Below are positions 18,636 to 43,086 of a stretch of 64,000 bases of DNA, one piece after another. The notes under the pieces were generated by a model. The model saw only the letters and a list, made by a program, of their open reading frames with translations, was not told where the DNA came from and searched no databases. The position numbers and the translations under genes were made by a program. Numbering within the stretch: position 1 is the stretch's first letter; each line of letters opens with the position of its first letter. The DNA is from Oscillatoria sp. FACHB-1407 (lineage in GTDB: Bacteria > Cyanobacteriota > Cyanobacteriia > Elainellales > Elainellaceae), in contig NZ_JACJSA010000004.1 in the NCBI RefSeq assembly GCF_014697545.1, positions 1-64,000 on the forward strand, given 5' to 3'.

Positions 18636-18640
18636 AGGTT

Positions 18641-18710
18641 AGTAGTTAATAGTCAATAGTCAATAGTCAATAGTTAATAGTCAATAGTTAATAGTTAATA
18701 GTTAATAGTG
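18641..18710. repeat. Heptanucleotide tandem array (TAGTTAA / TAGTCAA)
   Basis: About ten tandem 7-bp units alternate between TAGTTAA and TAGTCAA directly after the TIGR03943 gene. This is the short tandemly repeated repetitive (STRR) type described in cyanobacteria. It does not code. Confidence 0.85.
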
Positions 18711-18896: not shown

Positions 18897-19133
18897 GCCA
18901 TTGACCACTGACCACCAACCACTAGCCACTAACCATTAACCATTGACCATTGACCACTAACCATTGACCATTGACCACTAACCACTAGCCACCAACCACT
19001 AGCCACTAACCATTAACCATTGACCATTGACCACTAACCACTAGCCACCAACCACTAGCCACTAACCATTAACCATTGACCATTGACCACTAACCATTGA
19101 CCATTGACCACTAACCATTGACCATTGACCATT
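18897..19133. repeat. Heptanucleotide tandem array (ACCATTA / ACCATTG / ACCACTA)
   Basis: About 34 consecutive 7-bp units drawn from ACCATTA, ACCATTG, ACCACTA, ACCACTG and GCCACTA/GCCACCA. Units are ordered into higher-order blocks, so whole runs of 6-10 units repeat. It ends 66 bp before the start of cbiG-cobJ. The array at 31191-31397 is the same unit on the opposite strand. Confidence 0.9.
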
Positions 19134-28495: not shown

Positions 28496-28771
28496 CTACA
28501 TCGCCAGCAGATCATCTAGGGCATCAAGGGCTTCGCACCCATTCTGTGTCCACTGTTGGGCTGTGGTTTGGACGTGCTGGACAATCGCCCCAGTACCGGG
28601 AAAACGAGAGGGATTCTCGTCAAAGCGATCGCGCCCATGCAGGTACTCATCGGAATAGCGGCGAAACACGGCTTCCACAGCGGCACGGGCATTCTTTAAG
28701 CCCCACTCAGCGGCGATTTGCTCGGCTTTTTCGATTACATCCTGGCTGAGCCTTACTTTGTTGTCATACAT
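28496..28771 (-). CDS. Small protein encoded after ParM-like gene, possible ParR-like adaptor
   Basis: This 91-residue protein overlaps the end of the actin-like gene by 19 bp, so translation is probably coupled. The N-terminal part, VRLSQDVIEKAEQIAAEWGL, KNARAAVEAVFRRY, looks like a ribbon-helix-helix DNA-binding domain: a beta strand followed by two helices, with an NARAAVEAVF second helix. The C-terminal half is helical (VQHVQTTAQQWTQNGCEALDALDDLL). Position and size match the adaptor (ParR/StbB) of actin-type partition systems, which bind the centromere and the filament end. Sequence identity to known ParR was not recognised, so the role is inferred from context. Confidence 0.65.
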   Translation of the reverse strand: MYDNKVRLSQDVIEKAEQIAAEWGLKNARAAVEAVFRRYSDEYLHGRDRFDENPSRFPGTGAIVQHVQTTAQQWTQNGCEALDALDDLLAM

Positions 28772-29775
28772 AGCTGTACATCCGTCGAAAGAAGAAACAA
28801 ACCACGCACGTTGGCGAATTGAGGATCACCCATCACCGCAAATAGCTTGCGACCTGCTAACCGTTCAGAGATCAGGTGAGTGCTGCCCCCTGTCACCAAG
28901 AATCGGGTCACTCGTGCCATGTAGGGGGTGTATTGTGCTTTTACCGTTTGGAAGATGCCTTTGAACCAGGGTTCGAGGTGCTCATCCAACCAGCCACTCC
29001 AGGAAATCCCTGTGTCAGCGTAGGTATGCTCCACCCGGAAGCCATCCATCACCAGACTGGGGTCAGCGGTGGTTCCCAAAGCATTGGTGAGGCGTTTGTC
29101 AAAGCTGATGGAAGTGGCTAATTCGTAAGCACCGCCCCGATCCATCACGTTTTCATCAATCACTTCGCCTTCTGCATCGACTAAGCGAGTTAGCCAGGTG
29201 CCACCACCGATATCAATGACAATCGTGTAGCCACCATCGGGAATCAGTCCCATCTGTTTGGCATAACGGTAGGCACCCATGCCTTCTCGCTCGACCTCAA
29301 CCCGTTCGACCATGACGCGATAATCGATGTCATTGCGTTTGAATTCGTGCATTCCCAACAGTTGCTTGCGGATTGCTTCGTCGTTTTTGTTGGGTTCTGG
29401 GGTGCTGGCGTAGAGGTGCATGGCAAACTCGGTCGAGCCATTCCAGGGTTCTAGGCAAGCGTAGAGGTGTAAGCGAGACAACTCCACTTTATTTTCAATA
29501 ACCGTTTGTTGTTGGCGTCTGTATTTATAAGCCTGAGCACCAAAGTGATAGCGAGTGCCGTCGGGTAGCTCAATTAAGGGAGATGCATCGGTGTAGCGAA
29601 CGGGATCGCGTCCTTGAGGTAGTTGATAGCGCACCGAGCGAATTGCTTTAGGATGCCCTGTGCCATCGTAAAACTTGAGGTCGTAGTTGCCTGCATCCAG
29701 GGCTAACACGCGAGTTGTCGCTGAACTAATGCTAGAGTCTTTACTAGGTCTTCGTTGTCTGGTAGCTGTAGTCAT
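28753..29775 (-). CDS. parM: ParM/StbA family actin-like ATPase
   Basis: This 340-residue protein has an actin-fold ATPase pattern: phosphate-1 loop VLALDAGNYDLKFYDG (about 24-39), phosphate-2 loop IVIDIGGGTWLT and adenosine motif FLVTGGSTHLI. Length and motif spacing match ParM/StbA proteins, which polymerise to push plasmid copies apart. The N-terminal 20 residues (Thr/Arg/Ser-rich) are extra. The downstream gene overlaps it and may encode the adaptor. Upstream, a palindrome overlaps a likely -10 element, consistent with self-regulation. The gene lies among clear chromosomal genes (acsF, fabG). It could therefore be a plasmid-derived remnant or a chromosomal actin-like protein with a cellular role; the sequence does not decide. 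Confidence 0.82.
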   Translation of the reverse strand: MTTATRQRRPSKDSSISSATTRVLALDAGNYDLKFYDGTGHPKAIRSVRYQLPQGRDPVRYTDASPLIELPDGTRYHFGAQAYKYRRQQQTVIENKVELSRLHLYACLEPWNGSTEFAMHLYASTPEPNKNDEAIRKQLLGMHEFKRNDIDYRVMVERVEVEREGMGAYRYAKQMGLIPDGGYTIVIDIGGGTWLTRLVDAEGEVIDENVMDRGGAYELATSISFDKRLTNALGTTADPSLVMDGFRVEHTYADTGISWSGWLDEHLEPWFKGIFQTVKAQYTPYMARVTRFLVTGGSTHLISERLAGRKLFAVMGDPQFANVRGLFLLSTDVQLCMTTK

Positions 29776-31190: not shown

Positions 31191-31397
31191 TGGTCAGTGG
31201 TTGATGGTCAATGGTTAATGGTCAGTGGTTAATGGTCAATGGTTAATGGTCAATGGTTAATGGTCAGTGGTTAATGGTTAATGGTTAATGGTTAATGGTT
31301 AATGGTCAGTGGTCAGTGGTTAATGGTCAATGGTCAATGGTTAATGGTCAATGGTCAATGGTTAATGATCAATGGTTAATGGTCAGTGGTCAGTGGC
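31191..31397. repeat. Heptanucleotide tandem array (TGGTTAA / TGGTCAA / TGGTCAG)
   Basis: About 29 consecutive 7-bp units of TGGTTAA, TGGTCAA and TGGTCAG type start immediately after the acsF terminator. This is the reverse-complement orientation of the 18897-19133 array. Open frames across it (MVNGQWS repeats) are artefacts of the 7-bp period. The remaining 125 bp to the next gene show nothing recognised. Confidence 0.9.
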
Positions 31398-32821: not shown

Positions 32822-35800
32822 TTACTCCTCATAGGCATCCATCGGTAGGCAAGAGCACACCAGATTGCGATCGCCATAGGCATTGTCAATCCGTCCGACG
32901 CTTGCCCAGAACTTGTTCTCGCGTGTCCATTGGGTGGGATAGGCGGCGTGATGACGTGAGTAGGGATGATCCCACTCATCAGCCATGAGGTTAGCTGCTG
33001 TATGGGGTGCGTTCTTGAGCAGGTTATCCTGGCGATCGACCTTGCCCTCCTCAATTTCCCGAATTTCGTTGCGAATCGCAATCATGGCATCACAGAAGCG
33101 ATCGAGTTCCTGTCTCGATTCGCTTTCGGTAGGTTCCACCATCACGGTTCCGGCAACGGGCCAAGATACGGTCGGGGGATGGAAGCCGTAGTCAATCAAT
33201 CGCTTGGCGATGTCATCGACCTCAATGCCAACGGACTTTTTAAACTGCCGCAGGTCGAGGATACATTCATGCGCCACCAAACCATTTTTGCCCTTGTAGA
33301 GGATGGGGTAGTGTTCCTCCAGGCGTTTGGCGATGTAGTTGGCGTTGAGAATGGCAACCTGCGTGGCTCTGGTCAAGCCCTCGGTACCCATCAGCGCGAT
33401 GTACATCCAGGAGATTGGGAGGATACAACCGCTACCCCAGGGAGCCGAGGAAACCGCCCCAATGCGGGAGGTTTGGGGAGTCGCTCCGTCCAGGTTAACG
33501 ACGACGTGACCGGGGAGGAACGGCACGAGGTGCGCTGCAACGCCGATGGGGCCCATGCCAGGACCACCGCCCCCATGAGGAATGCAGAAGGTTTTGTGGA
33601 GGTTGAGGTGACAGACATCCGCACCAAAATCTCCGGGACGGCACAAGCCGACTTGAGCGTTAAGGTTTGCTCCATCCATGTAGACTTGCCCACCGTGTTC
33701 GTGGACGATCGCACAAATTTCTTGAATGGCTTCTTCAAACACCCCATGCGTGGAGGGATAAGTCACCATCAAAGCCGAGAGGCGATCGCTGTGTTTCTCA
33801 GCTTTGGCTTTGAGGTCAGCGACATCGATATTGCCTTCGTCATCACAAGCAACCGCGACGACTTTCATCCCCGCCATTACCGCACTGGCGGGATTCGTAC
33901 CATGAGCCGATTGGGGAATCAGGCAGACATTCCGGTGTCCTTCGCCCCGCTGTTCGTGATAGCGACGAATCACTAACAACCCGGTGTACTCACCCTGAGA
34001 GCCTGCATTAGGTTGGAGCGAAATAGCCGCAAATCCGGTAATCTCTGCCAGCCAAGCCTCTAACTGCTGGAACAGAATCTGGTAGCCCTGCGCTTGCTCC
34101 AGCGGAGCAAAGGGGTGAATTTGGGTGAATTCTGCCCAGGTAACCGGCACCATCTCCGAGGTGGCGTTGAGCTTCATCGTGCAGGAACCCAGCGGAATCA
34201 TTGCCGTTGTCAGGGAGAGATCCTTCGCCTGCAAGCGATGAATATATCGCAGCAACTCCGTTTCTGACTGGTAGGTGTTGAATACTGGATGGGTGAGATA
34301 GGGAGTTGTGCGCGTCAGGGATGCAGGCAGCTTCTCGGATGCAGTGGCTAAATCATCCAGGGTAAAGGGCAAGCGAGAGGTCGCTGAGCCACCGTTGGTG
34401 TAGCCACCGACGAACAGGTTGAGCAGATCGAGCACATCTTGAGGGCGAGTGGTTTCATCTAGTGAGATGCCGATCGCACTTGTACCCAGAGGACGCAGGT
34501 TAATTTGCTGCGCGATCGCTCGGTTCAAAATCTCCGTCTGGCGATCGCCCACATCAACCCGCAGTGTGTCGAAGTAAGCATCTGTTCCCAGCGTGTAGCC
34601 CAAGCGTTGCAAGCCTTCTGCCAACAGCGTGGTCAACTGATGAATGCGGGTAGCAATGCGCTTTAAGCCTGTGGGTCCATGGTAGACAGCATACATCCCT
34701 GCCATCACCGCTAACAGAACTTGAGCGGTACAGATGTTGCTCGTGGCAGTTTCGCGGCGGATATGTTGTTCGCGGGTTTGCAATGCTAAGCGCAGAGCGG
34801 GATGCCCTGCCGTGTCTTTGGAGACGCCGACCAACCGTCCGGGAATTTGTCGTTTGTAGTCCAACTTGGTGGCAAAGTAAGCGGCATGAGGTCCACCGTA
34901 GCCAAGCGGTACGCCAAAGCGTTGCGTGTTGCCCACGACGATATCTGCGCCAAACTCACCGGGAGGGGTGAGCAGGGTCAGACTGAGCAGATCGGCAGCA
35001 ACGGTGACGAGTGCCCCAGCAGCATGGGCGCGATCGATGAAGGCTTTGTAGTCATAAATTGCCCCATCGGTGGCAGGGTATTGCAGCAGTGCGCCAAAGA
35101 TGGGTTGGTCAAATTCGGTAGTGCGATGGTCGCCGATGATGACTTGAATGCCTAGCGGTTCGGCACGGGTTTGGATCACATCGATCGTCTGAGGGTGGCA
35201 GGCATCGGATACCCAAAACGCGGTCGCTTTGCCCTTGTGTAAGCCAAAGCTCATGGTCATGGCTTCAGCAGCGGCAGTGCCTTCATCTAACAGGGAGGCG
35301 TTGGCGATCTCCATCCCGGTCAGGTCGATCACCATCGTCTGAAAGTTGAGTAACGCTTCTAACCGTCCCTGAGAAATTTCGGGTTGGTAAGGCGTGTATT
35401 GGGTATACCAACCGGGGTTCTCCAGAATGTTGCGCTGAATCACAGGAGGCGTGATGCAGTTGGCGTAGCCCATGCCGATGAAAGAACGGAAGATCTGGTT
35501 TTTGGAGGCGATCGCCTTCAACTCCATTAAGCTCTCGTATTCGCTCTGCCCTTTCCCAAGTTGTAGAGGCTGCTTGACGCGAATCGCTTGAGGAACTGCC
35601 TTATCAATCAAATCATCCAGGTTAGTCAAACCCAACACATTCAACATCTGTTGAATATCACCCTCGCTGGGTCCGATGTGACGACGTTGAAAATCGTCTT
35701 GAGGGGCAAGGTCGCTGGCAACAGACGATGTGGGCGATCGCCGAGCCACGAGCGGAGTTTGAGTGGATGCAGTACTAACCGTTGATTCAGCAACAGTTGA

Positions 35801-35863
35801 GCCTTGAGCACCACCGTGATAATCAGACGAATGGTGTGGGTAAGCAGAGAGATCTGATGACAT
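32822..35863 (-). CDS. gcvP: Glycine dehydrogenase (aminomethyl-transferring), P-protein
   Basis: GcvP is the PLP-dependent decarboxylating subunit of the glycine cleavage system. It passes the aminomethyl group of glycine to the lipoyl arm of GcvH and works in photorespiratory glycine recycling and one-carbon supply. The length of 1013 residues corresponds to the fused (alpha plus beta) homodimeric form. The PLP lysine is in [20 protein letters not shown] (about residue 757). Other landmarks are [20 protein letters not shown] in the N-terminal half and [20 protein letters not shown] in the second half. The first 50 residues are a Ser/Thr-rich extension. gcvH lies 214 bp upstream on the same strand, so the two are probably co-expressed; gcvT is not in the window. 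Confidence 0.97.
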
Positions 35864-36077: not shown

Positions 36078-36467
36078 TTACTCTCCTTCGACTTGAGCAC
36101 GATATTCGTCTGCTGAGAGTGCGTCTTCCAAATCACCAGGGTCATTGACTCTAACTCGTAACAGCCATCCTTCACCGTAGGGGTCTTCTGCCAGTTGTTC
36201 AGGGTTATCTAAAATCGGTTCATTACGCTCGACCACCGTTCCCGTGATAGGGGAATTCAAATCTTCAACGGCTTTAACCGACTCAACCGTGCCAAACTTT
36301 TCACCTTTCTCAACAGCATCTCCCACCTCTGGTAGCTCCAGAAATACGATGTCGCCTAATTGATCAACTGCAAAAGCACTGATACCGACAGTGGCGATTT
36401 CGCCTTCTAATCGGGCATATTCATGAGAATCCAAATATTTCAAATCATCCGGGTAGTCAAAAGCCAT
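36078..36467 (-). CDS. gcvH: Glycine cleavage system H protein
   Basis: GcvH is the small lipoyl carrier that shuttles the aminomethyl intermediate between P-, T- and L-proteins. The 129-residue length is normal. The lipoylation lysine sits in [19 protein letters not shown] (Lys65). Conserved surroundings ([39 protein letters not shown]) and the C-terminal [20 protein letters not shown] are intact. The start is ATG 36467. It precedes gcvP on the same strand with a 214-bp spacer that includes filler and a fragment of the GCGATTAATCGC repeat. Confidence 0.97.
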
Positions 36468-36546: not shown

Positions 36547-39500
36547 CTAAAGACTCAAGCTGAGGGCAAGGGGTTCTGCCAGCTTTTGGTAGGTGCTAGT
36601 CATGAGTGTGCCAAGATAGCGGCGGAAGTGGTTCCACTGATCGTAGTTGAGACGGTAGGTCTGACTGCCCTGTTTGGAGAACAGTGGAGCGGATAACAGC
36701 AGCCGATAGTCGGGGTTTTGAGCCGATTCGCGAGTGAGTAAATAGGCGTATTTCTCAGTTGGCACCAGACCGGGGGGAAGCTGCCCTTCGAGCAGCGACA
36801 GAATTTGTTGATGACAGACCTGAGTGTTGATGCCGCGCCGCTCTAGCAGTTGCATCACTGCGCCCACGGATAACGGTTGATCTGGGAATGCTCGCAACAG
36901 TTCCAGGAGGAGGAAATAAGGGCTGTATTGTTGTCGTGCCAGATCAAGGACGTTGGGGTGGAGGGGGAGTGTGGCTAGCCCATAGGCGACCCGACTACAG
37001 ACTGGCAGACAGTCGCTGAAGGGCGACGAAGCCCGATCGCCCCCATAGGTATCTTGCAGAATTGTGGCATTGGGGAACTTTTGCGGTAACCAACGGGCGA
37101 TCGCCGCTAGAGATGCGGTGCCTCCGGTACAGACCACCTGATTGATATTCAACGCGGCTGTTCCGGTTTGGTTGAGCAGAGCGTTTAGCTCACGATTGAG
37201 CCGTTGAATGTAGGGCAAAAAGATACTGCTTGCCAGATCCTGACGGGCGATCGCCACCTGTTGATCGCCCAATTGCAAGACAAAGCGATCCTGCTGTTGT
37301 AGCACTAGCTTTAAGTGTCTTGCCGCTTCTAGCAACCCTTGCCCCAGAGGGGAACTGGTCAACCGTTGTTGCAATGCAAACCGATTTTGTACATCCGGTT
37401 CACCCACCAGTGGAAAGGACAGATTGTCTAAGCCCAAATTGCGCCAAATGGATTCATTAGCGGGGTCTGCTTCATTGGGTTGCCAATTCCATCCATCCAC
37501 AAACCTGCCTGATTTAGCCCCATTCCCGGAGCCAAATGTGTAGTTCAATGGGGTATTGTCACCCGATGCATTAGCCTGGGGCGATCGCTTGAGCCACGCC
37601 GGATAGATTAAGTGACAGATGATGTCTTGATCGAGGGCATTGCCTGCATAGGGCAAGCTGCGGAGGTAAAAGTCTTGATAGCTAAGAGTTTGTAGATCGC
37701 GGGGAAGATTGACCAACGCCATATCTGTGACAGTTGCTCCGGCATTGATTATCAGCGTTGCTCCCTCCCACTCCATATCCTCTAGATCGGGGTTGGCGAC
37801 CCCCTGAGGCAATTTTAAGGGGCGGGCATCGGCACTCGGCAACTCAGACAAGAGCGTGGCGATCGCATCTTCGACCACAAAGATTTGGTCAGGGCGGTTG
37901 ACCAGATGAGCCCCCAAAATGGCTTCCCGGATATTAAAGCTATAGGTGTCAGCCCATCCTACAGGGCAACCCACGATAACCCCCGCCAGTTGTCGGAGGG
38001 CAGTTTGAAAGGTATTTTGCTCCAGACCCAACGCAGCACAAGTCGGCGCAGATGCATCTGCTGCTTCTATCTCGCTGATACTCAGCGTCGATAACAGAGT
38101 GCGCACTGCCTGGTGAACGGCACTCAACGACAAGGGTTGGCTTGACCACTGCAACACGGGTTCCCACTGAGCCGTCTCTGGGGAGTAATGGGGAATGCCA
38201 ACGTTGAGATAAGGCTTAAAGTCTCGCAACAACTGCTTAGCCGAGTCAACCATGATCGAAGGGTGCCCAGAGCCTTGATGGGCAGCGGGAAAGGTCACCG
38301 CGACCAAATTGTTTTGCCCCATGAAATCCATGGCAAAGTCAGGCGTTGAGGCAGGTCGATTGAGCGAAGACAGATAGACGAGTGTCGGCAGTCGGAATTG
38401 TTGTTGGGTTGATGGTTCTGTTGACCAATACAGGGGATACAGCTCTAAGGTTACGCGATTGAGCAGGACGGCTGAAATGCCGGTCGTACCAAAATCAACG
38501 CCGAGATACCAGACTTTGGGAGTTGCCTTCGCTTGAGTGAAGGGTGGGGGAGGTGAAAATTCCTCACTGGCGAAGTCAGTTTCTAACAGAGCTTTTAGCT
38601 CCTGAGCATCAATGCCCAAATCTTCAGACAACTCCAGTAGCTCGGAGGCTTGCAGGTCATCCGTTCTCAGGTCGCTGGTGGGAGTTAGAGAAGGAATTGA
38701 CGATTCTGAGCCTAGCTCATCCAACTCCAGATCATCTAACTCCAGGTCGTCTAACTCCAACCCGTCCAATTCCAGTTCGTCTAGTTCCGGTAAGGATGCA
38801 GTGACGTCTGGTTCCGGGGCGACTGGCTCTGGGGCGATCGCTGTCTCCAGGGTGGGAGCATCGGTTTCTGGGGTATCAACCCTCGGAACATCAACATCTG
38901 GAGAGGTTGGCGTTGACGGTATTACCTCAGGAAACTCCAGCAGAGACGTTTCGAGGGCAGTTTCGGTGACTGGATGTTCAGCCGTTAGATGGTCAAGGAC
39001 GAGATTGTCAGTCTCTGTTACGTCTGATGTGGTTGCCAGGTCGGGTACCCGATCGGCGGTTGGTAAATCTGCTGCTGAGCGATCGAGCGGTTGATCGATA
39101 AAGAGAAAATCTAGATCATCGGGTACATCGGGTGCATCGGGCAAAGCGAACTCATCTGTATCACCCATTGCCTCTTGACCTGCAAGCAAATCCCGATCAG
39201 AGCGGTTGTCAGACTCGTTGTCTAAGGCAAGTGCAGCCAGGTCTAGGCTAGCGTCTGAACCGCTGTCATCTAAACTCGACTGGCTTGGTGTTGATGAGAT
39301 AGCTCCAATTTCCAACCTGGAACCAGGGTCGGCGATCGCCTCAGAACTGGTTCCGGCAACGGATTCAGAATTCGTTTCTGAGGCTAGGGTCTTTTTTTTT
39401 TCAATGTCCTCAGCTGTTGCCAGGTCATTAGTCGGGAGTTCTGATCCCAATTCTGGAGGCAAGGGTGGAGCCTGTCCTAAATCGCCAAATGCTCCCTCTA

Positions 39501-42500
39501 GTGTCCAATCTTCCGATTCAGGTTGAAATGTTGGCGTGCTTGAACCCATAGCAAGACTGGGCGCGTCTTCAAAGAGACTTTCGGCTAACCCTTCGAGGGT
39601 AAAGGCATTGGCTTCACCAGATAACGTTTCGATCGATGTATCTCTGGCGATCGCCTCATCAGGGGCAGGGGCGTCTACCGCAGGAGATGGACTAGAAGGC
39701 AAATCTACAGCCGCAATGTCGATGGGCACTTCACCACCAAACAAGTCATCCAGGAGAGGCATCTCTTCAGACGAGGCAGTTGGAGGAGTGAGGGCATCGT
39801 CAACCGTAGCAGGTAACGGAGGCACTGTGACAAACACATCGTCCAGCGTCGCATCGTCATCCAGCGGAATCGACACGGAGGGGAGGGCTGTATCGGTTGC
39901 TAAAAGAGCTGCCGATGCAGGTGGCAGGGACTCCACTGGAGATGGTGGCTCAGTCGGTGGCTCAGCTGGAGCATCGATAGATTCTGCCAAGAACAAGTCA
40001 TCCAACATCACCTCAGAGGGGGCAGGCTCAACTGGCGCGTCAGTGGCTTCTGAGGAAAATAGTTCATTCAACAACTCCGGAGACAGGGAGTTGATGAGGG
40101 GTTGGTTCGAGGATTCAGCTTCAGAGGCGACATCGTCACCCAAGGGTTGCTCTAGCGGTGGTGCCTCATCTCTATCTTCAGTTGTGCCTGCAACAGGCTG
40201 ATCTGAAAACAGAGTGTCCAGAAAAGCTGTTTCTTGAATGAGAGGATTGACAGGCTCAGCCGTGAGATCTTCTGGAGCATCCGCTTCTGAAACAGGTGCC
40301 CCGGCAAACAAACTGTCGAGGAGTGCTTCGTCTGTCAGTGAATCAGGCGGTAAGTCTGGAGTCCCTGACTCATCAAACGAGAAGTCTTGCAGGTCTGGGG
40401 ACAGCTCAAACAGGTCATTGTTGTTGGTTTCAGAGGGCTGTTCTGGAGTGTTAAAGAGTTCCTCTGGAGTCGTTTCTGGAGAGACAACTGGGTCAGCAGC
40501 CGTGGTCAAGTTATCCAACAAGCTCTGCCAATCGGTCGGTGGCTCAGTGGTAATCGGTTGATCGGCATCAACCTCAAAGTCGTTGATCCCAAAGTCGCTT
40601 TCTTCCGTTACCTGTGAAGGCTCCTCTGATGCAATCTCGTCAAACAAGTCAACGGGAGGTTGCAACTCTTCATCCAACAGAGATGCGTCGTATTGAGGAG
40701 GCTGGGGGTGATCTGAGATGTCGTCAACAGGGTCATCGTGGAATGACGACAGGAGATCCGCTTCTGACAGGTCAAGATCCGGCAAGTCTGATAGCTGGTC
40801 AGGCTCTAACAGGTCAGGTTCCAGCAGATCTGACTCTGGGGAGGCGTCACCAAACTGATCCTCTAGATTGGAAAGATCGTTGGTGAGTTGGCTCAGAATG
40901 GTGTCACCCAAATCGACCGGAGCGTCAGGTGTTAGATCCTCCTCGGATACCAGCAGGATTTCATCCGGGGCAGCGGGCACAAAGGTATCTTCATCGAAGG
41001 CAAGACCTGCTACATCATCAGAGATCTCGGCTGGGTCGATAGCAGACTCCGATTTAGGGGCTGTGATCAGGTCAGACAGGCTAGTGATGACATCGACATC
41101 GTTAGGAATGCCGCTATCGGAGCTAACCTCGTCTTGCCAACCGCTGACGCTATCACCAACAGCTAATGACTCCAGAGCTAATGACTCTCCCAGCAGGTTT
41201 TCCAGGGGGTCAGTCGAGGATTGGTCAATCTCATCCTCTGCGGCAGTGATGCCTGTACCGTGAGCAGGGTCAGCCAGACCGCCAAATAGCTCGTCTACCA
41301 GGGCTTCAGAGCCTTCTGTAAGGGGTGGCTCAAACTCTGTCTCTACCGATGGTTCAAGGGGCGATCGCTCTGATTCTACGATTGGCTCAAACGTTTCCAA
41401 CTCAGAAAAGTCCAGCCTAGAGGTATCTTCAGCAATACCTGCAACACTATCTTGTTCAACTGAGTCAAGTGATTCTTGCCCCGCATCTGCAACATGCTGA
41501 TCAACGGGTTCCACATCGGGGTCTGATGGGTCAGCTTGAATTGCCGTAGACCCAAATAAGCTCTCATAGAGTTCGCTCATTTCATCGTCATATCCCTCCT
41601 GGTCGGGGGAGATGATGACGGGTTCAGTGTTTGTCGTCTCGGTGGATGATCCAGGCTCATCAGACTGCAACTCAGCACTCAATTGGTTGAGTAAGTCAAG
41701 GGTTGAATCTCCCTCTAGCTCTGGCTCAACAAACATCTCTCCTTCTGCGAAATCGACAGCGGAATCCAGGTCAGCTTCCAGTTGAGCGATGTCATCATCA
41801 CTGACCTGAAACGAGGTCAACGGTTGATCGACCTGGAAGAAGGTGATGTCATCATCCACCTCAAATGCCGGGAAGCCTGGATTAGCTGATTCGCTGACAG
41901 TTGTTGGTAATTGCTCCAGGTCTAAATTGTCGAGATCGATATCGTCCAGATTAATCGCCGTTGGAGCAGGTGGTTGAATCGACGTGGTTGGCGGTTGAAT
42001 GATGGTGGCAGGCTCGTCTGACTGAAGTTCATTCAACAGCAGATCGATCGGATCGTTAGATGCAGGGTCTGCATCCTCCGTCACAGGTGCCATATCCAGC
42101 ACAAAGGGTGATCCTTGCGTTATTTGGGAAGGAGTGCGCTCATCCTCTGGAGTGGTCACCGCAGGCAAAGGACGACCTGTTGCTGCCCAGTCGGTTGTTT
42201 GCAGTGAAGACTGTAAGTATGTTGATGCCTCTCGACCCAGTTGTTGCGCCAAACGATTGACCAACGCCGCAAACATCGCTTCGCCCTGTTGACCCAGGTT
42301 ATGCATCTTATCTAGACCCTGGCTCAACGAGTCTTGATAGCTTTGAATGTTGCTTTGTAGCGACTCAAAAATGACTCGCAGCGTCGAGTCGAGCTTGAGC
42401 AACAGTTGATCCGATTGAGATTGCAGAGTTTGGATCTGCTCTAGTCGCTGTTGCGCACTGAGCACAGGTTGATAGGAGACTCCAGTTTCGGGATGCACCT

Positions 42501-43086
42501 CGGTTGTCAGTGGCGTACTGCCCAGCAATGCCCGCTCCTGGGCTGATTGTGCCTCTAGACTGGCAACCATTTGAGCGACCTGCCCAGTCAGATTCTCCTG
42601 CAATCGCCCCATGAGGGACTGCAAAAACTCAGTAATAATTTGTTGTTGACTTTGGGCGGGAGGTAATGCCTGTTGACGTTGTGCCTCTAGCATTCGCACT
42701 TCTTGCAATAGAGCCTCTCGTTGGAGCTGCAATTGCTCCACGTCATTTCGCAGGGGCTGCATTACGTTGGCACGCAGGTAGCTCATCTCTTGCAACACTG
42801 CTTGCAGAACCTGCTGAGCCGACTCAACTGCTGGGGCTTGCCCTTGAGGATAGGCGAGATTGTAAGCCAGTGGGCTGCTGGGCAACGCTGGACTACCCGG
42901 TTCAGGAATGTCTTGCTGAAGCGAAAGAAGATACCTGCGAGTTTGTTCTAGAACCTGACGTTGTTGATCAGCATCACCTGCCATGACCCACGGTAAGCGT
43001 GGACTTGGCTTGCTTAATACTTCATCAATCTCATTAATCAGTGCTTGAATTTGAGCTTTATGAGAAGTCACGATAAAAGTTCCCAA
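36547..43086 (-). CDS. Giant acidic protein with C-terminal Hsp70/actin-like ATPase domain
   Basis: I cannot name this 2179-residue protein. Residues 1-330 are helical, Gln-rich coiled coil (LRNDVEQLQLQREALLQEVR, QMVASLEAQSAQERALL). Residues 330-1520 are strongly acidic, Pro/Ser/Thr-rich and probably disordered. They are punctuated by at least seven short hydrophobic motifs of LLDxLF type (near 507, 600, 923, 957, 1007, 1027, 1113, 1170) and an LELDDLELDDLELDEL repeat near 1440. Residues 1524-2000 are an Hsp70/actin-type ATPase: phosphate-1 YLGVDFGTTGISAVLL, a phosphate-2-like TLIINAGATVTDMALV, and adenosine motif NQVVCTGGTASLAAIA. The last 170 residues could include a winged-helix-like domain. 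No membrane segment or signal peptide is present. The start is ATG 43086. It stands alone between gcvH and a UPF0182 gene. Confidence 0.8.
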   Translation of the reverse strand: MGTFIVTSHKAQIQALINEIDEVLSKPSPRLPWVMAGDADQQRQVLEQTRRYLLSLQQDIPEPGSPALPSSPLAYNLAYPQGQAPAVESAQQVLQAVLQEMSYLRANVMQPLRNDVEQLQLQREALLQEVRMLEAQRQQALPPAQSQQQIITEFLQSLMGRLQENLTGQVAQMVASLEAQSAQERALLGSTPLTTEVHPETGVSYQPVLSAQQRLEQIQTLQSQSDQLLLKLDSTLRVIFESLQSNIQSYQDSLSQGLDKMHNLGQQGEAMFAALVNRLAQQLGREASTYLQSSLQTTDWAATGRPLPAVTTPEDERTPSQITQGSPFVLDMAPVTEDADPASNDPIDLLLNELQSDEPATIIQPPTTSIQPPAPTAINLDDIDLDNLDLEQLPTTVSESANPGFPAFEVDDDITFFQVDQPLTSFQVSDDDIAQLEADLDSAVDFAEGEMFVEPELEGDSTLDLLNQLSAELQSDEPGSSTETTNTEPVIISPDQEGYDDEMSELYESLFGSTAIQADPSDPDVEPVDQHVADAGQESLDSVEQDSVAGIAEDTSRLDFSELETFEPIVESERSPLEPSVETEFEPPLTEGSEALVDELFGGLADPAHGTGITAAEDEIDQSSTDPLENLLGESLALESLAVGDSVSGWQDEVSSDSGIPNDVDVITSLSDLITAPKSESAIDPAEISDDVAGLAFDEDTFVPAAPDEILLVSEEDLTPDAPVDLGDTILSQLTNDLSNLEDQFGDASPESDLLEPDLLEPDQLSDLPDLDLSEADLLSSFHDDPVDDISDHPQPPQYDASLLDEELQPPVDLFDEIASEEPSQVTEESDFGINDFEVDADQPITTEPPTDWQSLLDNLTTAADPVVSPETTPEELFNTPEQPSETNNNDLFELSPDLQDFSFDESGTPDLPPDSLTDEALLDSLFAGAPVSEADAPEDLTAEPVNPLIQETAFLDTLFSDQPVAGTTEDRDEAPPLEQPLGDDVASEAESSNQPLINSLSPELLNELFSSEATDAPVEPAPSEVMLDDLFLAESIDAPAEPPTEPPSPVESLPPASAALLATDTALPSVSIPLDDDATLDDVFVTVPPLPATVDDALTPPTASSEEMPLLDDLFGGEVPIDIAAVDLPSSPSPAVDAPAPDEAIARDTSIETLSGEANAFTLEGLAESLFEDAPSLAMGSSTPTFQPESEDWTLEGAFGDLGQAPPLPPELGSELPTNDLATAEDIEKKKTLASETNSESVAGTSSEAIADPGSRLEIGAISSTPSQSSLDDSGSDASLDLAALALDNESDNRSDRDLLAGQEAMGDTDEFALPDAPDVPDDLDFLFIDQPLDRSAADLPTADRVPDLATTSDVTETDNLVLDHLTAEHPVTETALETSLLEFPEVIPSTPTSPDVDVPRVDTPETDAPTLETAIAPEPVAPEPDVTASLPELDELELDGLELDDLELDDLELDELGSESSIPSLTPTSDLRTDDLQASELLELSEDLGIDAQELKALLETDFASEEFSPPPPFTQAKATPKVWYLGVDFGTTGISAVLLNRVTLELYPLYWSTEPSTQQQFRLPTLVYLSSLNRPASTPDFAMDFMGQNNLVAVTFPAAHQGSGHPSIMVDSAKQLLRDFKPYLNVGIPHYSPETAQWEPVLQWSSQPLSLSAVHQAVRTLLSTLSISEIEAADASAPTCAALGLEQNTFQTALRQLAGVIVGCPVGWADTYSFNIREAILGAHLVNRPDQIFVVEDAIATLLSELPSADARPLKLPQGVANPDLEDMEWEGATLIINAGATVTDMALVNLPRDLQTLSYQDFYLRSLPYAGNALDQDIICHLIYPAWLKRSPQANASGDNTPLNYTFGSGNGAKSGRFVDGWNWQPNEADPANESIWRNLGLDNLSFPLVGEPDVQNRFALQQRLTSSPLGQGLLEAARHLKLVLQQQDRFVLQLGDQQVAIARQDLASSIFLPYIQRLNRELNALLNQTGTAALNINQVVCTGGTASLAAIARWLPQKFPNATILQDTYGGDRASSPFSDCLPVCSRVAYGLATLPLHPNVLDLARQQYSPYFLLLELLRAFPDQPLSVGAVMQLLERRGINTQVCHQQILSLLEGQLPPGLVPTEKYAYLLTRESAQNPDYRLLLSAPLFSKQGSQTYRLNYDQWNHFRRYLGTLMTSTYQKLAEPLALSLSL

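Follow-up and report, generated by a model that had tools for sequence, protein, structure and literature searches.

A homopolymer tract between an acidic scaffold and an Hsp70-type domain in cyanobacteria as a proposed slippage site yielding two proteins

The window analysed here is a 64,000 nucleotide (nt) stretch of Oscillatoria sp. FACHB-1407 (contig NZ_JACJSA010000004.1, positions 1 to 64,000), in which an original prediction described a 2179-residue acidic scaffold protein ending in an Hsp70/actin-like ATPase domain at positions 36547-43086. The open reading frame (ORF) exists at these coordinates; it is read on the minus strand and its start is likely shifted. Because many relatives begin to align at residue 6-7 of the 2179-codon ORF, the GTG at position 43071 is probably the true start, which would give a product of 2174 amino acids (aa). 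The key feature of the gene, unnoticed in that prediction, is a run of ten A's (A10 tract, positions 39401-39392) located in the linker, which we propose to be a slippage site allowing the gene to specify two proteins. The gene is organized as follows:

36547-43071, minus strand: whole gene, long form of 2174 aa, likely GTG start (ORF and alignment of relatives)
42172-43071, minus strand: N-terminal domain, helical and coiled-coil-like, residues 6-305 (conservation over 36 aligned rows; all-helical model)
39402-42171, minus strand: acidic low-complexity linker 5' of the tract, with conserved islands (composition, conservation)
41551-41568, minus strand: YESLFG, residues 507-512, the conserved Y..LF(G) motif of the linker (motif recurrence)
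39392-39401, minus strand: A10 tract in the codons of E1229 K K K1232, proposed slippage site (junction alignment, genome run count)
39384-39386, minus strand: TAG in the ATPase+1 frame just past the tract, which would terminate the short form (frame reading)
38518-39390, minus strand: acidic linker 3' of the tract, residues 1233-1523, long form only (frame reading)
38717-38783, minus strand: 15-bp tandem repeat encoding LELDD repeats (repeat scan)
36550-38517, minus strand: Hsp70-type nucleotide-binding domain and C-terminal extension, residues 1524-2179 (structure model, fold matches)
36550-36942, minus strand: C-terminal extension past the nucleotide-binding core, about residues 2049-2179, approximate boundaries (secondary structure of the model)

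No Pfam or NCBIfam model matched the window protein above cut-off, searches of the PDB with its sequence gave weak matches only and a plasmid search with the whole protein gave no match. With the ATPase region as query, 66 of 98 relatives gave a match, and a profile search of 146 genomes of the class (completeness at least 95%) identified a strong ATPase relative in 81 of them (E 1e-32 or better, counted from the listing). The weaker profile matches, at E about 1e-12 and above, appear to belong to another Hsp70-like protein, some 535 aa long. Two samples were used: a 61-genome set consisting of the window and 60 fetched loci, which is a subset of the genomes with relatives, and an 80-locus set, mostly Nostocales and kin, which holds the best 80 of 256. 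Individual loci are designated by the letter L and a number. In 26 of the first 40 fetched loci, the scaffold and the ATPase are two adjacent ORFs on the same strand; judged from these alignments, the window ORF is a fusion of two ORFs seen separate in relatives, and a reading of it as a single scaffold protein overlooks the two overlapping frames that meet at a slippery tract in many relatives. The count of adjacent ORFs was based on first-start ORFs and the junction counts in the 61 genomes on stop-to-stop frames.

The ends of the 26 split scaffold ORFs resemble each other. A KK or KKK is present within the last 40 residues in 25 of them (KKK in 19), and in 19 of the 26 the stop codon lies no more than five residues past it. 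The window protein carries the same EKKK internally, and the DNA at the junction of relatives is a run of 9-11 A's. Among the 61 genomes, a tract of at least nine A's with the ATPase frame open was found in 45 (35 split, 8 fused and 2 without a scaffold read on the contig). A near stop, defined as a stop codon that the ATPase+1 frame meets within four codons, is present in 40 of these 45 loci; elsewhere in the linker, 23% of positions have one as close (35 loci). At the tract, 32 split and 8 fused loci have the scaffold frame and the ATPase frame open together, and a near stop is found in 37 of these 40; the scaffold frame ends ahead of the tract in L048, L168 and L172. In the 32 split loci, the ATPase frame contains no stop in the 3,668 codons between the tract and the domain (201 and 295 stops in the other two frames), and its content of aspartate plus glutamate (D+E) reaches 21% versus 2% and 5%, resembling the acidic linker. 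No ATG or GTG is present between the tract and the domain in 10 of the 32, and TTG is also absent in 6, so that in these 10 loci a change of frame would be the only evident route to the ATPase. The conserved tract, the open frames, the near stops and the predicted fold are what can be read from the DNA itself.

Long runs of A's are otherwise rare in these genomes. The 8.13-Mb genome of the window contains nine runs of at least nine A's on either strand, and the sole A10 is the one in this gene. When A10 runs were searched in 30 genomes and assigned to the gene by hand from their coordinates, 24 genomes had any such run and 19 had one in this gene; in those 19 genomes, the gene holds 19 of the 38 runs of at least ten A's, and in eight of them it holds the only one. 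The other ORFs at 40 loci (n = 269, 226 kb) contain two A8 runs and nothing longer. Separately, two further A9 runs were seen in sense orientation within long open frames, in L182 (own genome C1:38539; 1054 codons) and in L189 (C51:7797; 799 codons), and these are possible further slippage sites.

Combined, these features make it likely that homopolymer slippage yields two products, a short scaffold and a long form joined to the ATPase. A fraction of the transcripts would gain or lose an A at the A9-A11 tract. In one frame, translation would continue through further acidic linker into the Hsp70-type domain and generate the long form, and in the ATPase+1 frame it would meet a stop within a few codons and generate the short form. 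The window has the long form written in its DNA, and the short form would arise by slippage; the split loci are the reverse, with the short form written in the DNA and a long form that would arise by slippage. The default frames of the loci in which both frames are open at the tract comprise 8 fused, 23 split in the +1 frame (split+1) and 9 split in the +2 frame (split+2). Because the addition or loss of A's would serve all three default frames, the slipping enzyme is probably the RNA polymerase. The genome default may then flip among the long form, the short form and the third frame, since a slippery tract would restore both products each time.

Several observations weigh against this interpretation. 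The loci are related and the counts are not independent. Five of the 45 tract loci (L062, L063, L158, L166 and L168) carry no near stop, and no usable tract was scored in 16 of the 61 genomes (11 fused, 4 split and 1 without a scaffold read). The four split loci are L056, L072, L161 and L167, the latter having an A10 and a broken ATPase frame; L053 has neither a usable tract nor a scaffold read. In the 80-locus set, 48 loci lack a tract of at least nine A's (41 of these 48 are fused), and only 15 of the 32 tract-bearing loci have a near stop. Internal initiation could also take place in 22 of the 32 split loci, where an ATG or GTG lies between the tract and the domain. Lastly, in 5 of 43 loci, including the window (-2.8), the RNA downstream of the tract has a structure z below -2, as a ribosomal frameshift would favour. 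With runs of at least eight A's, a near stop was counted in 41 of 62 rows (five rows duplicating genomes already included were dropped; copies fetched later stayed in). Constitutive fusions exist, as does, by the frames read, the plain two-gene form in L056, L072 and L161. The tractless or stopless Nostocales loci therefore suggest that some cyanobacteria do without two products, or else obtain them by another route.

The fused genes of the Nostocales type include ten (L097, L098, L121, L124, L134, L135, L139, L145, L147 and L152) in which an A10 is found about 32 codons before the ATPase and no near stop is present in either frame. By contrast, L094, L104, L108 and L126 (A8-A10) have a near stop. 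The A10 of the ten genes is possibly a relic, a chance occurrence or a second kind of site.

A first alternative, which we consider unlikely, is that programmed -1 ribosomal frameshifting on A-rich heptamers joins the two frames. The A10 contains heptamers of the A_AAA_AAA / A_AAA_AAG type, which are known shift sites (PMC3711429), a -1 shift alone would reach the ATPase in 23 of the 32 split loci in which neither frame is closed at the tract, and the stable downstream RNA of the window and four other loci would suit such an event. However, the nine split+2 loci would need a +1 or a -2 shift and could not be joined by a -1 shift. Downstream structure is ordinary over the 43 loci (mean z -0.51, with +0.13 upstream), in which no RNA structure common to the loci was found beside the tract, and a Shine-Dalgarno-like word is present upstream of the tract in only 14 of 41 loci; neither a downstream structure nor such an upstream word was thus found as a -1 stimulator common to the set.

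Phase variation, in which replication slippage alters the tract length and cells switch between short and long forms over generations, is an improbable explanation. Fused and split states both exist, and the label given to the default frame changes 13 times among the tract rows of a 69-row tree, at most three of these changes coming from unread or broken scaffold frames (L048, L158 and L169). This tree was obtained by a 'quick' search with a stop limit of 8 codons on 60 of the 61 genomes (L172 was too short) together with nine chosen loci of the 80-locus set; on it the presence or absence of the tract changes 8 times, the root being arbitrary. In addition, the frames differ within genus g19 between L047 (split+2) and L078 (split+1). 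Both of these tracts are A10, however, and length alone fails to explain the difference. Conversely, four loci of genus g5 are all split+1 despite varying tracts (A11 in L065 and L170, A10 in L066 and L171; in a fifth, L048, the scaffold frame ends early), and in genus g12 L067 (A10) and L069 (A9) are likewise both split+1. Plain on/off switching would also leave the near stop in one frame without a clear purpose. These comparisons argue against tract length alone as a phase switch and not against phase variation as such.

Least probable, by a small step, is an ordinary two-gene operon with an independently initiated ATPase, the tract and fusions being incidental or sequencing indels: although L056 and L072 are split, tractless and have an ATG-started ATPase overlapping the scaffold end by a few bases, and although start codons follow the tract in 22 split loci, the 10 split loci devoid of ATG or GTG before the domain, an ATPase frame that stays open and acidic as far as the tract, the rarity of such tracts elsewhere in these genomes and the occurrence of both states in single-contig assemblies (L039, L045 and L052 split, L041 fused) all speak against it.

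The C-terminal part of the long form was modelled with good confidence (predicted local distance difference test, pLDDT, 83.8; predicted template modelling score, pTM, 0.86). Compared with known structures, the model matched DnaK best (Foldseek E 4.4e-13), structural alignment gave Z 20.3 with 9a5j (DnaK) and Z 19.8 with 5oby over 337 residues at 3.6 Å, and hhalign gave E 4.4e-7 when the profile was compared with DnaK of the same genome. The predicted joining of a scaffold to an Hsp70-type nucleotide-binding domain is thus supported by family matches and by the fold. No match to Pfam PF00012 (HSP70) was obtained for the window protein, nor at its place in a search of its own genome; among the relatives, 14 of 34 have a match with E no higher than 1, the best being 0.0016. 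Because the window protein lacks this match, the domain is, according to the model, a divergent Hsp70-type nucleotide-binding domain that is Hsp70-like in fold only.

The residues aligned with the DnaK catalytic set were taken from the profile alignment with the own-genome DnaK. In 39 rows, D8 is retained in 39, K70 in 38 and E171 as E or D in 39; the position of D194 is D in 1 and that of T199 is T in 3 (5 of 34 and 6 of 34, respectively, in a wider alignment). The full set (D8, K70, E171, D194 and T199) is therefore not kept, the D194- and T199-aligned residues being lost. Of the three ATPase motifs originally predicted, phosphate-1 and adenosine are present, and phosphate-2 is without the residue aligned with D194. 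Since that residue is rarely an Asp, the role of a working nucleotide switch proposed for the domain is uncertain. Its loss suggests an ATP-binding head that would hydrolyse slowly and may act as a clamp or a switch, and not as a foldase.

Among known proteins, the domain shares with the Hsp70/DnaK nucleotide-binding domain its fold, the phosphate-1 Asp and the K70-aligned Lys; it differs from DnaK by the lost residues, by the lack of a Pfam HSP70 match in the window and by its fusion to an acidic coiled-coil scaffold. Non-canonical Hsp70s of the Ssz1/Hsp110 type act with little hydrolysis, and the model matches their fold (4gni, 2qxl and 6gfa); the architecture is different and the likeness consists of fold matches, as to other Hsp70s. 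Weak matches to PilM, an actin-like pilus ATPase, are also found among family members (PF11104; 25 of 34 at E up to 1, best 1.3e-5), the window protein itself scoring below threshold (E 0.04, 13.3 bits against a cut-off of 27). Six neighbours in L132 and four window proteins were tested and included no pilus gene. The pair MamJ-MamK associates an acidic repetitive protein with an actin-like filament, encoded by two separate genes in another phylum; the likeness, an acidic repetitive scaffold with an actin-fold ATPase, is an analogy only.

The scaffold part agrees in several respects with the original prediction. The first ~300 residues, predicted as a coiled coil, are modelled as all-helical (pLDDT 75, pTM 0.28). 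The acidic low-complexity stretch of about 1200 residues is borne out by its composition (D+E 25%, lysine plus arginine 2% over residues 301-1520), as is the LELDD repeat, a 15-bp tandem. The claim of at least seven LLDxLF motifs holds only under a looser pattern, as the strict LL[DENSQT]xLF occurs in 3 copies in the window linker and in none of the 68 other linkers of the 80-locus set. Compared with shuffled sequences, the window linker is enriched in LF dipeptides (12 vs 5.3 expected) and in L[DE]xLF (5 vs 0.1); over 69 linkers, LF is found 218 times vs 105 (twofold) and L[DE]xLF 20 times vs 2.6, the window contributing 5 of the 20. A Y..LF motif is present in 27 of 41 loci, with 1.1 occurrences expected over all. 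These enrichments lend weak support to LF motifs as repeated docking sites, and docking of a client through them is possible. Because the strict motif is confined to the window, a single-protein condensate tethered by LLDxLF motifs was dropped as the main story. The length of the linker ranges from 213 to 1619 aa among loci, some ORFs being cut or split; much of it is therefore variable filler with conserved islands.

Taken with the two-product reading, the N-terminal coiled coil would act as an oligomeriser and form a scaffold together with the long acidic linker, and slippage would lead to a scaffold with an ATP-binding head on a set share of its subunits. We put forward more tentatively, at somewhat less than an even chance, that slippage rather than promoter control sets the fraction of subunits carrying this Hsp70-like ATP clamp, with an output independent of the default frame. 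Slippage, ATP binding and the cellular role are inferred from sequence, and the clamp step, which is drawn from the modelled fold and residues, adds to the points against the proposal.

The mechanism class is known. Transcriptional slippage on poly-A is described for dnaX (tau/gamma) of Thermus thermophilus and Chlorobi (PMC3711429, PMC5009743), and in E. coli reporters frameshifting was 63% with 11 A's in the cassette, 40% with 9 and 10% with 7 (PMC3711429). The gene resembles dnaX in its A9-A10 tract, its near stops and the proposed production of a short and a long protein from one gene; dnaX being a single ORF in Thermus and two ORFs in Chlorobi, it also offers a precedent for a changing default frame (PMC3711429, PMC5009743). 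The gene differs from dnaX in belonging to an unrelated protein family, in encoding a scaffold that would be made with the Hsp70-like domain or without it and in showing all three default frames within one phylum. Slippage on an A11 is likewise described for tssM of Citrobacter rodentium, where a poly-A beside a stop yields two variants of different length in a ratio that is important (PMC4256274). That case concerns the C-terminal domain of a secretion-system protein in two named species (PMC4256274), whereas an Hsp70-like domain and many cyanobacterial families are involved here. Open-access literature searches returned no report of this gene among the matches listed, and neither the protein family nor the breadth of the tract within it was found in the literature searched.

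In the surroundings of the gene, a CRP-family regulator and a DUF2232 membrane protein are each found near it in 14 of the first 40 loci, whether tract-bearing or not, and are mostly divergent and upstream (13 and 11 instances; for example L132:4511-7212). Their clusters span 57 and 54 of the 80-locus set, and the window neighbourhood is without them; the recurrence of these neighbours gives no functional pointer beyond itself. Directly downstream in the window, on the same strand, the ORFs at 36078-36467 and 32822-35863 (minus strand) resemble gcvH and gcvP by eye, and they have no family in common with other loci in the neighbour comparison. Further along, an actin-like protein (28753-29775, minus strand; Pfam ALP_N, E 3.7e-7) is directly followed, with a 19-nt overlap, by a 91-aa protein without a Pfam family (28496-28771, minus strand), a pair that looks like a chromosomal ParM/ParR-like system. 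The window also contains arrays of 7-bp tandem repeats at 18638-18709, 18898-19133 and 31191-31396.

If the proposal is true, whether mechanical gene calling reports one gene or two in this family depends on the chance length of a tract, and the tract gives a way into a protein whose window copy had no Pfam or NCBIfam domain above cut-off. It would also mean that a homopolymer encodes the ratio between two forms of a conserved scaffold, and would provide a testable case of transcriptional slippage retained across many families of cyanobacteria.

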